Origin: an uncultured Clostridia bacterium | GTDB taxonomy: Bacteria > Bacillota > Clostridia > Christensenellales > UBA1242 | Length of the DNA: 38,366 nt | Direction: 5' to 3' | Assembly (NCBI GenBank): GCA_944332315.1 | Contig: CALVJT010000044.1 | Span: forward strand, 1-38,366 | Part shown: in pieces, positions 245 to 20,280 of the stretch | How the letters are laid out: each line of letters opens with the position of its first letter | Numbering within the stretch: the stretch's first letter is position 1 | Program-made: the position numbers and the translations under genes | Notes under the pieces: generated by a model | The model's input: the letters and a program-made list of their open reading frames with translations, nothing else | Told to the model about the DNA's origin: nothing | Database searches by the model: none

Positions 245-346
245 TAATTAGGTTCCTTAAGCTTAAAAATGCTTTGAAAATTAGGAATAAATCTCTATAA
301 CATACTAAAAAGGCAAATTCTACACTTTGCCACATTTTATTAATTT

Positions 347-444
347 GGGTTTATATATTAGTGGGGGTTAGTTAAAAATTTAGCAGAAAAAGATTAGCAA
401 AGGTCTGAACTTATAGCTTGCTATACCCCAATTAATAAAGAACC
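347..444. repeat. Dispersed palindromic repeat, copy A
   Basis: About 98 bp, clearly related to the segments at 13502-13603 and 15428-15504. Shared blocks include GTGGGGG near the left end, TTAGC and AGCAAA in the middle, CTATACCCC, and AATAAAGAACC at the right end. The two ends form an imperfect inverted repeat beginning GGTT. Bases 412-425 form a perfect internal hairpin (TATAGC-TT-GCTATA). The copy begins about 18 bp beyond the stop codon of the metallophosphoesterase gene. No clean target duplication is seen, so it may be an older copy; its left boundary is uncertain by several bases. Confidence 0.75.
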
Positions 445-6863: not shown

Positions 6864-7227
6864 TGGTGGAAGCGGTGGGAATTGAACCCACGTCCACACC
6901 AAATTTGCAGTGCTTTTCTACGCGCGTAGATTGTTTTCAAAATTCCACAAAGAACGCCCACAATCAAAACCCGCTTTGCTATAGGTTGCCTAGTTCAATT
7001 AAGGCACAACCATAACCTTAATCTATCGTTCTAACTTAAAGCCTAAATTGTAAACGAACGATTATTTGCAATTAGACTAGGCATTCTGACTAAGCAGCCA
7101 ATGCCATTGCACCATTAGGTGCCGAAACATTTTTATTTGCGTTTATATTTAATTTCCCTTTTAACGAAGTGGGACTTCGGCGCGCTTTTTCACGCAAATT
7201 TTGGTATGTCGAAGCCAAGTCGCCCCC
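6864..7227 (-). ncRNA. ssrA: Transfer-messenger RNA
   Basis: The 364-nt RNA rescues stalled ribosomes together with SmpB. Its ends pair as a tRNA-Ala-like acceptor stem (GGGGGCG at the 5' end, CGCTTCC before ACCA at the 3' end), and the T-arm GTGGGTTCAATTCCCAC is visible near the 3' end. The conserved 5' stretch GACTTGGCTTCGACA is present. The tag frame starts at GCA (7138-7140) and ends at TAG (7090-7092), giving ANKNVSAPNGAMALAA; the ALAA ending is the classic degradation tag recognised by ClpXP, whose genes lie further along this window. It lies 21 bp downstream of smpB, matching the Bacillus order secG-rnr-smpB-ssrA. Confidence 0.97.
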
Positions 7228-10945: not shown

Positions 10946-13237
10946 TTAACCTTTTCTTTCCAAAATTCTAATAACAAATACAGTCATATCGTCATTAGGC
11001 GCTTCGTTATTAAGGTGGACTGCCTCGTTCAAAATATTTTCGGCTAAAGTTTGAGGATTGATGATTTCTAGATTATTGATGTGATTTTTTAGGAGTTCCT
11101 CATCGTTAAAAGCATCCAATACTCCATCGGTCATTAAAATAATATTATCCCCATGTGACAAAACATACTTTGACACACTAGGTTTAAGTTCATCTAGTAT
11201 ACCCAATGGCAATGCTCCAGCATCAATAATCTCTGTACTTTCCTTGTGTTTTATAAAACCTAAAGGCGCACCTATTTTTATGATATCACAACCACCATTT
11301 TTAAGGTCCAATACCCCCAAATCAATTGCAGTAAAGATATCGTTGGATGCCATAGTTAGTAGGTTGTTGGCACAATCTATTACAGTTTCCGAATTAAAGC
11401 CCGCCTTATAAAGATTTTCTATAATGCCTATACTAATTGTACTTGCCCTCTTTGCATTGTCGCCACTGCCCATACCATCGCAAAGCGCAAACAAAAATTT
11501 ATCGTTATCGATTTTTAGAAAAGAATGTGTATCTCCACTAGCAGAACTATTGTATTTAGTGCGAGAAGCCACACCATAAATCACATCAAACTTCGGTGCT
11601 ACACCAAATATTACACTGCTATAATTAGGAAAATCACTGGTAGTTGCCGAAATTAAATACATATTCATATCCAGCACACTAGATACTATTTTATTAAGCT
11701 TGCTTTTATATAAATTATCATTTTTTACTAGTAAAGCAACAGTTGTATTGTATTCTTTTTGATATATTAAAACTTCCTTACATTGTATGCCCTCGCAGGT
11801 CAATTCATCCATAAGCTCGCGTTCATAGTTTGAATCGACCTTTATTTTGACATTGATTTCATCGGCAAGTTCCTCTAAAACTCCACTTACTCCACCAAAA
11901 CTTCTTGCAACTATGTTGCGACTGGTATCAGCGCGATTAACGCTATTCTCATACTTTTTGTACTCTAAAATTAACTCATTAAGATATGGTATTAGCGCGT
12001 TTAGCTTAATACAATTTTTCGAAAATCTTTCCTCAACATCCATCAATGTTAGTTTGCCCTTTTTTAGCCCCATAAAAACAAGGTTTTTTATGTTTTGCAT
12101 AGTTTCGCGATTATTTAGTCTTAAACACCTATTTTGCTCCTTACAATTTTGACAATTTTTTTGCACAATTTCTTGAGAAATTGTATCAACCAATTCCTCC
12201 TCGCTCAAATTGCCCTTAGACATCGCCCTAAACTGATTTTGTAGTTCACTAAAAATTTCAGCTACTTCCAGTAAACGCCTATTTAACTTTTTAGTGGATA
12301 CATTCATTATATTTTCGACTAAATTCGATTTATCGTTAGAGGATATATAACTTATAATATCATTCAATTGCCGTTTAGGTATTAGCATAAAAATACCACA
12401 TCCAATTAAAACAGCAATTAAAGATTGATAGTGATAAACCGGCAACACTTGCAAATATAGCCCTACAAACAAATCAATAAACAATAAGCCAAGTATTAAA
12501 AATATAGGATTTTTATCGGCAAATATCCAAATTATAATAGCATAACTTGCAAAAACAAACAACAAACCTGTGTAAAACGCATTTAGGCTAGCACCCAAAC
12601 CCATTACTATTGCACTTAATAGCATTGTGCTTTTTGATACTTTTCGTAAAAAAAGCAACAATAATAAAGCAAAAATTGATAGTAAGTTTATGTAAAAAAA
12701 TTCAAATGTAGATAATCCTAAAGAAAATATTGCAAGAAAAACAAATGCACAAACATTTTCATCTAATATAAAATTTTTTAGCTTTTTCCTTATAACTGCC
12801 TGAAAAAATATTAGTGTAGCAAGCAAAAAAATAATTCCCACCGCTAAATATGCTAAACAATAAAATAGCCCATCTAAACTATCTATATTAAAATACATAA
12901 ACGCTATTTGGCTTAAAAAACTATAAACTAAAATTAGCCATATGTTAAGAGGCTTTTTTAATTTATAATGTAAAAAATAGCAAAATAAAAATATCAGTAT
13001 AGTACTAGCACTGCAAATTATATTTACTTCGTTAAAGCCCATTACTAAACAAGATAAAAAGTATGTTATTGCCACACAGTATATATTTTGATTGCACCAA
13101 ACAAGCGCAAAAAACATTGCAAAACCAAAAGGTTGCAAATTGTTGTTTAGCGAGGCAGAGTTTAGCACTACCATCATAAAAAAGAACGCAAGGTATTTTA
13201 CTACAAACTTTATAATTTCCTTTTTCTTTGCTTCCAT
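10946..13237 (-). CDS. spoIIE: Stage II sporulation protein E, SpoIIE phosphatase
   Basis: A 763-residue protein. The N-terminal half has about ten membrane helices (residues 10-300), a central regulatory region follows with a Cys cluster (CQNCKEQNRC), and the C terminus (about 555-763) is a PP2C-type phosphatase with ALCDGMGSG, LPLGI, LMTDGV and the final DDMTV metal motif. In Bacillus SpoIIE localises to the polar septum and dephosphorylates SpoIIAA, which releases SigF in the forespore. Its presence marks the organism as an endospore former. ATG at 13237 is chosen; an in-frame TTG lies two codons upstream. No Shine-Dalgarno is visible, and TATAAT sits six bases before the ATG. No terminator is seen downstream. 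Confidence 0.95.
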   Translation of the reverse strand: MEAKKKEIIKFVVKYLAFFFMMVVLNSASLNNNLQPFGFAMFFALVWCNQNIYCVAITYFLSCLVMGFNEVNIICSASTILIFLFCYFLHYKLKKPLNIWLILVYSFLSQIAFMYFNIDSLDGLFYCLAYLAVGIIFLLATLIFFQAVIRKKLKNFILDENVCAFVFLAIFSLGLSTFEFFYINLLSIFALLLLLFLRKVSKSTMLLSAIVMGLGASLNAFYTGLLFVFASYAIIIWIFADKNPIFLILGLLFIDLFVGLYLQVLPVYHYQSLIAVLIGCGIFMLIPKRQLNDIISYISSNDKSNLVENIMNVSTKKLNRRLLEVAEIFSELQNQFRAMSKGNLSEEELVDTISQEIVQKNCQNCKEQNRCLRLNNRETMQNIKNLVFMGLKKGKLTLMDVEERFSKNCIKLNALIPYLNELILEYKKYENSVNRADTSRNIVARSFGGVSGVLEELADEINVKIKVDSNYERELMDELTCEGIQCKEVLIYQKEYNTTVALLVKNDNLYKSKLNKIVSSVLDMNMYLISATTSDFPNYSSVIFGVAPKFDVIYGVASRTKYNSSASGDTHSFLKIDNDKFLFALCDGMGSGDNAKRASTISIGIIENLYKAGFNSETVIDCANNLLTMASNDIFTAIDLGVLDLKNGGCDIIKIGAPLGFIKHKESTEIIDAGALPLGILDELKPSVSKYVLSHGDNIILMTDGVLDAFNDEELLKNHINNLEIINPQTLAENILNEAVHLNNEAPNDDMTVFVIRILERKG

Positions 13238-13243
13238 AAGCAA

Positions 13244-13493: not shown

Positions 13494-13501
13494 AAAAAAT
13501 G

Positions 13502-13603
13502 TGTTCTACAATATTCGTGGGGGGGTATCAAAAATTAAGCGAAAAGAGCTTAGCAAAAGTTCGAATCTATAACTCACTATACCCCCATTAATAATAAAGA
13601 ACC
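13502..13603. repeat. Dispersed palindromic repeat, copy B, with 8-bp target duplication
   Basis: A 102-bp element with imperfect terminal inverted repeats: left TGTTCTACAATATTCGTGGG and, read from the other strand, right GGTTCTTTATTATTAATGGG. About 16 of 21 positions agree from GTTCT through the G-run. The inner arms GGGGGTAT and ATACCCCC pair well. The element is flanked by identical 8-bp direct repeats AAAAAATG (13494-13501 and 13604-13611). The right flank is part of the terminator of the RluA-type gene. There is no room for a transposase gene, so it would be a non-autonomous miniature element. Confidence 0.85.
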
Positions 13604-13627
13604 AAAAAATGTTGCAGAACAACATTT
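13604..13627 (-). terminator. Rho-independent terminator of the RluA/CBS operon
   Basis: An 8-bp stem (AAATGTTG 13607-13614 with CAACATTT 13620-13627) with a 5-nt loop is followed on the minus strand by a T-run that ends exactly at repeat copy B. It lies about 65 bp past the RluA-type stop codon. Confidence 0.88.
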
Positions 13628-13692: not shown

Positions 13693-14409
13693 TCAATACT
13701 CAATAGGCGTTTGTTTTAGATTTAGAAACCTATTTATATCAAATAAATTAAAAGGATATAAATCATCTGGCGGATACACAATAAAATTCATTTTTTCTTG
13801 CTTAATGGGGTGTTCAAATTGTAGATTATAAGCCCAAAGTGCTAAATTGTGCTTTTTATCCCCTTTACCATATTTAGAATCACCAAACACAGGACATTTT
13901 ATTGCACTCATTTGCACACGAATTTGATGTCCCCTACCTGTTAATAGATGCACTGTAACTAAGCTTAAATTGTCTTTTGTATCCAAAACATTATAATCGA
14001 GTTCAGCACACTTTGCTCCTGTAGTTAAACTAGGTACTATTGCTACAATATTATCAACCTCATTCTTTTTTAAATAATGCACTAAATGCCCTTTGTTTGT
14101 TTTAGGCGTTCCATCCAAAACTGTAAGATATTTTTTTTCAAATCCACCATTCCTTATTTGCTCCGAAAGCCTAGAAGCTGCCTTACTAGTCTTAGCAAAC
14201 ACCATTACCCCGCCTGTAGGTCTATCTAATCTGTGTACTAACCCTAAATATACATTACCCGCTTTGTTATCTCTTTGTTTTATATATTCTTTAAGGATGG
14301 TTAGCATATCTTTATCCTTGCTAGCATCCTCTTGGCTAGGTATATTTTGTGGCTTAACAACCACCATAATGTGATTATCCTCATAAATAATCATTTCATC
14401 TACATTCAT
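13693..14409 (-). CDS. RluA-family RNA pseudouridine synthase
   Basis: A 238-residue enzyme that isomerises uridine to pseudouridine in RNA. The catalytic motif HRLDRPTGG (59-67, Asp62) and LLTGRGHQIRVQM are clear. There is no N-terminal S4 domain, unlike RluD at 24537-25445, so it belongs to the short RluA-type group, whose targets may be rRNA or tRNA. The ATG at 14409 is preceded by GAGGCG, which overlaps the stop of the upstream CBS-domain gene, so the two are coupled. Exact target position unknown. Confidence 0.93.
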   Translation of the reverse strand: MNVDEMIIYEDNHIMVVVKPQNIPSQEDASKDKDMLTILKEYIKQRDNKAGNVYLGLVHRLDRPTGGVMVFAKTSKAASRLSEQIRNGGFEKKYLTVLDGTPKTNKGHLVHYLKKNEVDNIVAIVPSLTTGAKCAELDYNVLDTKDNLSLVTVHLLTGRGHQIRVQMSAIKCPVFGDSKYGKGDKKHNLALWAYNLQFEHPIKQEKMNFIVYPPDDLYPFNLFDINRFLNLKQTPIEY

Positions 14410-15427: not shown

Positions 15428-15504
15428 TGTTCTATAAAATTCGTGGAAATTAATATTTTAGCAGAAAGAGCATAGCAAAACTTACGATATACCTATTAAA
15501 AACC
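15428..15504. repeat. Dispersed palindromic repeat, copy C, with 8-bp target duplication
   Basis: A 77-bp shorter relative of copies A and B. The left end TGTTCTATAAAATTCGTGG matches copy B closely, the middle shares TTAGCAGAAAGAGCATAGC, and the right end is AAAACC. About 20 bp before the right end are missing relative to copy B. Identical 8-bp direct repeats ATATAAAA flank it (15420-15427 and 15505-15512). The right one is part of the T-tract (minus strand) of the terminator of the 86-residue gene. Confidence 0.8.
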
Positions 15505-19938: not shown

Positions 19939-20204
19939 GCTGTGCTAGGTGGGGAGCTAGCGGTGCCCTATTCCTACAATCCGCTATAGTAGGACTGAAT
20001 GCCGTTTTCGGTGTCTATCAAATACTGCAAGTATCAATTTACAATGTTGAACTCAAGGTCTTGTGCAATATTAACCTTCGAACCATGTCAGAGCTTGACC
20101 GCAGCAGCATTAAGGAGGAGCTGATATGTGCCACAAGGGCGCTTTGGGGGAGTTGGCAAGTTGATGGCTACTTTATTTGAAGGCAACAACAACGGATGCA
20201 CAGT
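19939..20204 (+). ncRNA. ffs: Signal recognition particle RNA, large Firmicutes type
   Basis: About 266 nt. The 5' part has the conserved Alu-domain-like start GTGCTAGGTGGGGAGCTAGC, followed by GGTGCCC and later GAATGCC. The S-domain signature ATGTCAG...AGCAGCATTAAGG at about 20083-20115 is the Ffh-binding region. CTGTGC (19940-19945) pairs with GCACAG (20198-20203), closing the molecule. Clostridia and Bacilli carry this long form with an Alu domain, while most Gram-negatives have only the 4.5S RNA. The RNA is the scaffold for Ffh in co-translational targeting of membrane proteins. Exact ends are inferred from the promoter and the end pairing. Confidence 0.93.
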
Positions 20205-20206
20205 AT

Positions 20207-20280
20207 GCAGGTGTAGTTTAGTGGTAGAACACAAGCTTCCCAAGCTTGTCGTGAGGGTTCGATTCCCTTCACCTGCTCCA
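20207..20280 (+). tRNA. tRNA-Gly (anticodon CCC)
   Basis: A 74-nt tRNA with acceptor GCAGGTG/CACCTGC, T-arm GAGGGTTCGATTCCCTT, anticodon stem CAAGC/GCTTG and loop TTCCCAA, which puts CCC (20239-20241) at the anticodon for GGG codons. The 3' CCA is encoded. It begins only two or three bases after the SRP RNA, and no promoter lies between them, so both are probably cut from one precursor. Confidence 0.95.

Follow-up and report, generated by a model that had tools for sequence, protein, structure and literature searches.

A miniature element with ISL3-type ends and a partial preference for terminator T-tracts in a small Clostridia genome

The stretch of DNA analyzed here (the window; 38,366 nucleotides) carries on its minus strand a gene for an RluA-family pseudouridine synthase (13693 to 14409; PF00849, 1.2e-31), whose match to the rluA_subfam model TIGR00005 (E 3.1e-49) falls below that family's curated cut-off. 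The next gene downstream, also on the minus strand, is a spoIIE-like sporulation gene (10946 to 13243; PF19732, PF07228); the whole genome measures just 1.33 Mb. Elsewhere in the window lie a tmRNA (6864 to 7227; tag ANKNVSAPNGAMALAA) and the large SRP RNA (19940 to 20203), with a tRNA-Gly directly adjoining it (20207 to 20280).

Between the rluA-type and spoIIE-like genes, 102 bp (13502 to 13603) that start with TGTTCT and end with AGAACC are enclosed by two exact copies of the 8-mer AAAAAATG (13494 to 13501 and 13604 to 13611), the left and right copies of a target-site duplication. The ends of the segment form imperfect terminal inverted repeats: TGTTCTACAATATTCGTGGGGGG on the left (13502 to 13524, plus strand; family consensus GGTTCTATAATATTCGTGGGGG) and, read inward, GGTTCTTTATTATTAATGGGGG on the right (13582 to 13603, minus strand). 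The element is placed on the plus strand according to which end matches the left end of the insertion sequence discussed below. A preliminary description of this DNA had reported a 102-bp segment with imperfect terminal inverted repeats and identical flanking 8-mers, and both our coordinates and the exact AAAAAATG pair agree with it.

The right 8-mer belongs to a terminator-like hairpin 3' of the rluA-type gene, AAATGTTG-TTCTG-CAACATTT with a T-tract (13604 to 13627, minus strand; -9.3 kcal/mol, z = -4.1). Read on the minus strand out of the gene, the sequence is AAATGTTG-TTCTG-CAACATTTTTT, with a stem at 13607 to 13614 and 13620 to 13627 and a T-tract from 13609 to 13604, so that the 8-mer supplies the T-tract and the last bases of the stem. 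The preliminary description had made the same assignment, to the terminator of the RluA-type gene; we confirm the observation, but a stricter consensus terminator scan did not list the hairpin because its stem has only 2 G-C pairs, and we therefore call it terminator-like. All four congeners examined have the same gene order (the rluA-type gene followed by a similar reading frame downstream) and a terminator-like hairpin with a T-tract at the same place, and this conservation argues that the hairpin is a real terminator.

The element belongs to a large family. A 161-bp query found 42 places in the home genome by BLAST, and a sequence profile based on 33 copies gave 105 matches, from which 91 non-redundant copies were kept (hence a copy number of about 90), 76 of them of full length. 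This genome is an incomplete draft in 77 contigs, and copies of insertion sequences may be lost at contig ends. The family consensus reads GGTTCTATAATATTCGTGGGGGT..T.AAAAATTTAGC.GAAAGAGCTTAGCAAAAGTTTGAATCTATAACTCACTATACCCCCATTAATAATAAAGAACC. The element at 13502 to 13603 scores best against the family model (98.7 bits), in part because that model includes it; the window also holds a second, diverged copy that by now lacks an exact duplication (about 346 to 444, plus strand; 75.7 bits), probably the one called copy A in the preliminary description, and a decayed partial copy (about 15428 to 15500, plus strand; 30.5 bits). The length of the G-tract in the left end (13518 to 13524 in the window) varies widely among copies, reaching 12 G at C37:4643, which suggests slippage. 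At the median, two copies are 73% identical, and nearest neighbors mostly 80-90%, so the burst of copies was not recent; most copies are old and diverged.

Exact 8-bp flanking repeats enclose 13 of the 76 full-length copies, against an expectation of 0.08 obtained by pairing left flanks with the right flanks of other copies. Repeats of other lengths are about as frequent as chance predicts (3 observed vs 1.47 expected for 5 bp, 2 vs 0.8 for 6 bp, 1 vs 0.15 for 7 bp and 0 vs 0.07 for 9 bp). Thus, the duplication is 8 bp long, and the duplicated 8-mers are AT-rich. With about 100 bp, no coding capacity, 22-bp imperfect terminal repeats, about 90 copies and a fixed 8-bp duplication, the family has the properties of a miniature inverted-repeat element (MITE). 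At E 1e-5, its profile found no match outside the genus across 197 genomes of the taxonomic family, and a search of viral contigs for the exact 22-bp end found none. Two congeners (G001 and G002) hold elements of their own, about 95-124 bp long, with the same two ends and different interiors.

Those ends are also carried by an insertion sequence of the same genus. In a third congener, G003, we found a complete ISL3-family element: two contigs (L082 and L078) share an identical overlap of 141 bp and together give 1362 bp; the joined sequence may combine two insertion sites. Its left end is GGTTCTATAATATTCGTGGGGG and its right end, read inward, GGCTCTTTGTCAATAATGGGGG; the MITE consensus matches the former at 22 of 22 positions and the latter at 18 of 22. 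The 389-aa transposase has the ISL3 DDE domain (PF01610, 223 bits, 5.8e-66) and the ISL3 zinc ribbon (PF14690, 1.8e-8) and matches NF033550 (286.7 bits, 2.7e-85). Given the match of both ends, together with the 8-bp duplication and the GG-starting ends, we regard the element as an ISL3-derived MITE. One copy, at C59:8570, has a right end still closer to that of the insertion sequence and adjoins 42 bp identical to its left region. Past the 22-bp ends, the match between MITE and insertion sequence is not significant alone (121/2000 and 172/2000 shuffles), and subterminal homology is at most suggested. ISL3 relatives on plasmids are all less than 60% identical.

The 77-contig home assembly contains no intact ISL3 transposase. 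The sole recognizable one is a fragment that runs into a contig end (C62:29064-29195; 88% identical over 42 aa), and a MITE copy abuts it, inside the reading frame. At this place (L039, 350-471) a second partial MITE end lies in tandem, with a terminator-like hairpin adjacent, and the arrangement is one of nested insertions. The preliminary description had proposed a non-autonomous element mobilized by a transposase elsewhere, and had named IS6 and ISL3 as families that duplicate 8 bp. The ISL3 kinship is supported by the ends and the transposase found in G003; the IS6 kinship falls away. Mobilization of the family by an ISL3 transposase would fit these data, and its present-day activity at home is open to doubt, the transposase there being only fragmentary.

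The preliminary description had also suggested a preference for terminator T-tracts. Each insertion point was given a score for the presence, to its left or right, of a hairpin followed by a T-rich tract, with the 3' foot of the hairpin placed 3-16 nt ahead of the duplication's outer edge. The score is home-made, the terminators are predictions in an AT-rich genome, and the threshold was 18 or more. By this measure 27 of 75 copies (about 36%) lie at terminators, compared to 5.3% of intergenic positions (24,861 in all) and 7.6% of those that are AT-rich (Fisher test, 3e-10, with the autocorrelated control positions thinned beforehand), an enrichment of about 5-7 fold. When shifted positions in the same flanks served as the control, with a slightly different, earlier version of the script, the counts were 26 of 75 copies vs 5.8%. 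Among the copies with exact duplications, 7/13 score at least 16. Insertions are most frequent in the tracts that border a hairpin, on both sides of it, and nearly none cuts a stem. More than half of the copies lack a terminator by the detector used; since that detector misses several terminators recognizable by eye (e.g., C39:14535, C26:19302 and C4:29147), the true share is probably higher. The preference is thus real but partial, and not exclusive.

The same preference is seen in full-length ISL3 elements. The right end of the G003 element lies directly after a strong terminator, ...CCCTAATATGATTTTTTTA (score 33), and four related elements of congeners (L073, L075, L079 and L080) abut strong hairpins with T-tracts; the threshold is not reached by three others (L074, L077 and L081), nor, on contig 31 (L078), by the left flank of the G003 element. 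From 37 transposase relatives in other Clostridia genomes we delimited 14 elements with exact 8-bp duplications, all with ends close to GGTTCTATAATAAATGTTGGGG / CCCCAACACTTGACAAAGAGCC. Seven of these 14 are at terminators, compared to 4.1% of intergenic controls and 1.1% of the full set of control positions (p 1e-6); several belong to a single genome (Herbinix) and are not fully independent, although their insertion sites differ. The clade as a whole (L090-L123; Herbinix, Acidaminobacter, Thermobrachium and others) has nearly identical ends across distant Clostridia, although its transposases share only about 40-46% identity with the query. Its members in Herbinix, Acidaminobacter, Thermobrachium and Lachnoclostridium resemble the MITE in terminal repeats, 8-bp duplication, A/T target and terminator preference; they are full-length elements of about 1.4-1.7 kb with a transposase, unlike the window element, which consists of ends only.

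Orthologous loci without the element exist at the level of the locus, not of the base, because the congeners are too diverged. The rluA terminator is empty in four of four congeners, G003 and G004 have no element in the convergent terminator at C60:4772, and G002 and G003 have none in the tRNA-Trp terminator, which is occupied by a MITE here (C49:4293). In G001 the tRNA-Trp terminator carries the end of a different ISL3-type element in the opposite orientation (L204), apparently an independent insertion in the same terminator. At a uvrA-type locus, the downstream side was clearly comparable in only two of four congeners.

Three other explanations have to be weighed. The element could be the non-autonomous derivative of another family that duplicates 8 bp, IS6 or IS1595, since both its 8-bp duplications and its GG ends are features of a general kind. 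The home genome has no match to the IS6-type transposase (PF13610), a profile that does match control genomes, and the IS1595-type transposase (PF12762) is absent as well; both families were rejected as parents, and with the exact ends carried by an ISL3 element of the same genus, we consider such an origin the least probable of all. Hardly more credible is a conserved element that happens to recur, either a structured RNA or a regulatory one of attenuator-like or tRNA-like type. Folded as a single copy, the window element shows some stability (z -2.6 and -3.3), and within it lies TTCGAATC, which resembles a tRNA T-loop. Across 33 copies, however, there is no consensus structure and no covarying pair, neither Rfam nor a tRNA search gave a match, and the family consensus reads TTTGAATC in place of TTCGAATC, on which account a tRNA-like origin was dropped. 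A structured RNA would also leave the duplications and the transposon ends unexplained, and this reading is largely refuted.

A more serious competitor, though still an unlikely one, is survivorship: the element would insert in any AT-rich DNA, insertions in genes and promoters would be purged, and the copies left in 3' intergenic DNA would appear linked to terminators. The duplicated 8-mers are indeed AT-rich, and open frames of at least 100 codons hold only 2 of 81 copies, compared to 78% of random window positions. Purging of genes and promoters does not account for an enrichment that persists against intergenic, AT-matched intergenic and shifted same-flank positions, nor for the precise register of the insertions in the tracts beside the hairpin. 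That full-length ISL3 elements with exact duplications share the preference in unrelated Clostridia also speaks against it.

We therefore favor, with a probability of roughly 0.88, the reading that this is a MITE derived from ISL3 ends, multiplied in trans by an ISL3 transposase of the genus and inserting in A/T tracts beside hairpins with an 8-bp staggered cut. Deletion of the transposase gene from an ISL3-family insertion sequence would have produced the MITE as two joined ends. The transposase of the genus would then have multiplied it in trans, directing it to A/T tracts next to a hairpin, chiefly the T-tract of an intrinsic terminator, and cutting with a stagger of 8 bp. Because the duplicated 8 bp are the T-tract itself, one full terminator would be kept on the hairpin side, and the upstream gene would still end properly and stay insulated. 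The cue for the transposase may be a hairpin or cruciform, a bent A/T tract, or a paused or terminating transcription complex. Insertion that spares genes may account for the persistence of the family.

We also lean, with distinctly less assurance, toward a wider claim, namely that a widespread ISL3 clade of Clostridia has a built-in specificity for intrinsic-terminator T-tracts (the tract DNA flanking the hairpin, or the terminating complex) and that its insertion regenerates the terminator, a near-neutral, safe-harbor form of targeting comparable to that of class C group II introns. Insertion sequences are mostly treated as loose in target choice; if the claim is true, this clade would follow a predictable safe-harbor rule, the toleration of about 90 copies by a small genome with no visible harm to genes would be explained, and it becomes a testable question whether a DDE transposase recognizes a hairpin in DNA, the geometry of the tract or an RNA polymerase that has paused.

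Group II introns of class C (IIC) combine a retroelement with a ribozyme and are not known to duplicate their target, and their machinery is unrelated to that of the MITE. The likeness lies in target choice, as these introns are described as inserting after intrinsic terminators, 3' of the hairpin (PMC3522654, citing Robart 2007). An ISL3-associated insertion in an rRNA-operon terminator of Enterococcus faecium (PMC11702846), a single event, shares with the MITE an ISL3-family element, an 8-bp duplication and a rho-independent terminator as target; that report describes the terminator as disrupted and, in its accessible part, draws no general rule. Also on record is an ISL3 transposon whose 8-bp duplication is AT-rich (PMC9782665). 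In the open-access literature on terminator-targeting insertion sequences, we found the group IIC introns and the one ISL3 terminator event but no terminator rule for ISL3, and a terminator-tract specificity common to this clade provisionally appears undescribed there.

MITEs that share the ends of insertion sequences are well known, e.g., MITEAba12 (PMC6382973), which is likewise about 100 bp long, with ends common to a full insertion sequence, fixed-length duplications and AT-rich targets. It differs in being tied to ISAba12 and in its 9-bp duplications, and the accessible part of its description mentions no terminator preference, whereas the family described here has ISL3 ends and duplicates 8 bp. 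The type of element, a non-autonomous derivative of an insertion sequence, is thus already known, and the family with ISL3 ends is new. Finally, a 2010 study of Firmicutes found terminators clustered upstream of ISL3 transposases and read them as part of the insertion sequence (PMC2965389); as a lead only, some of these could instead be target terminators.
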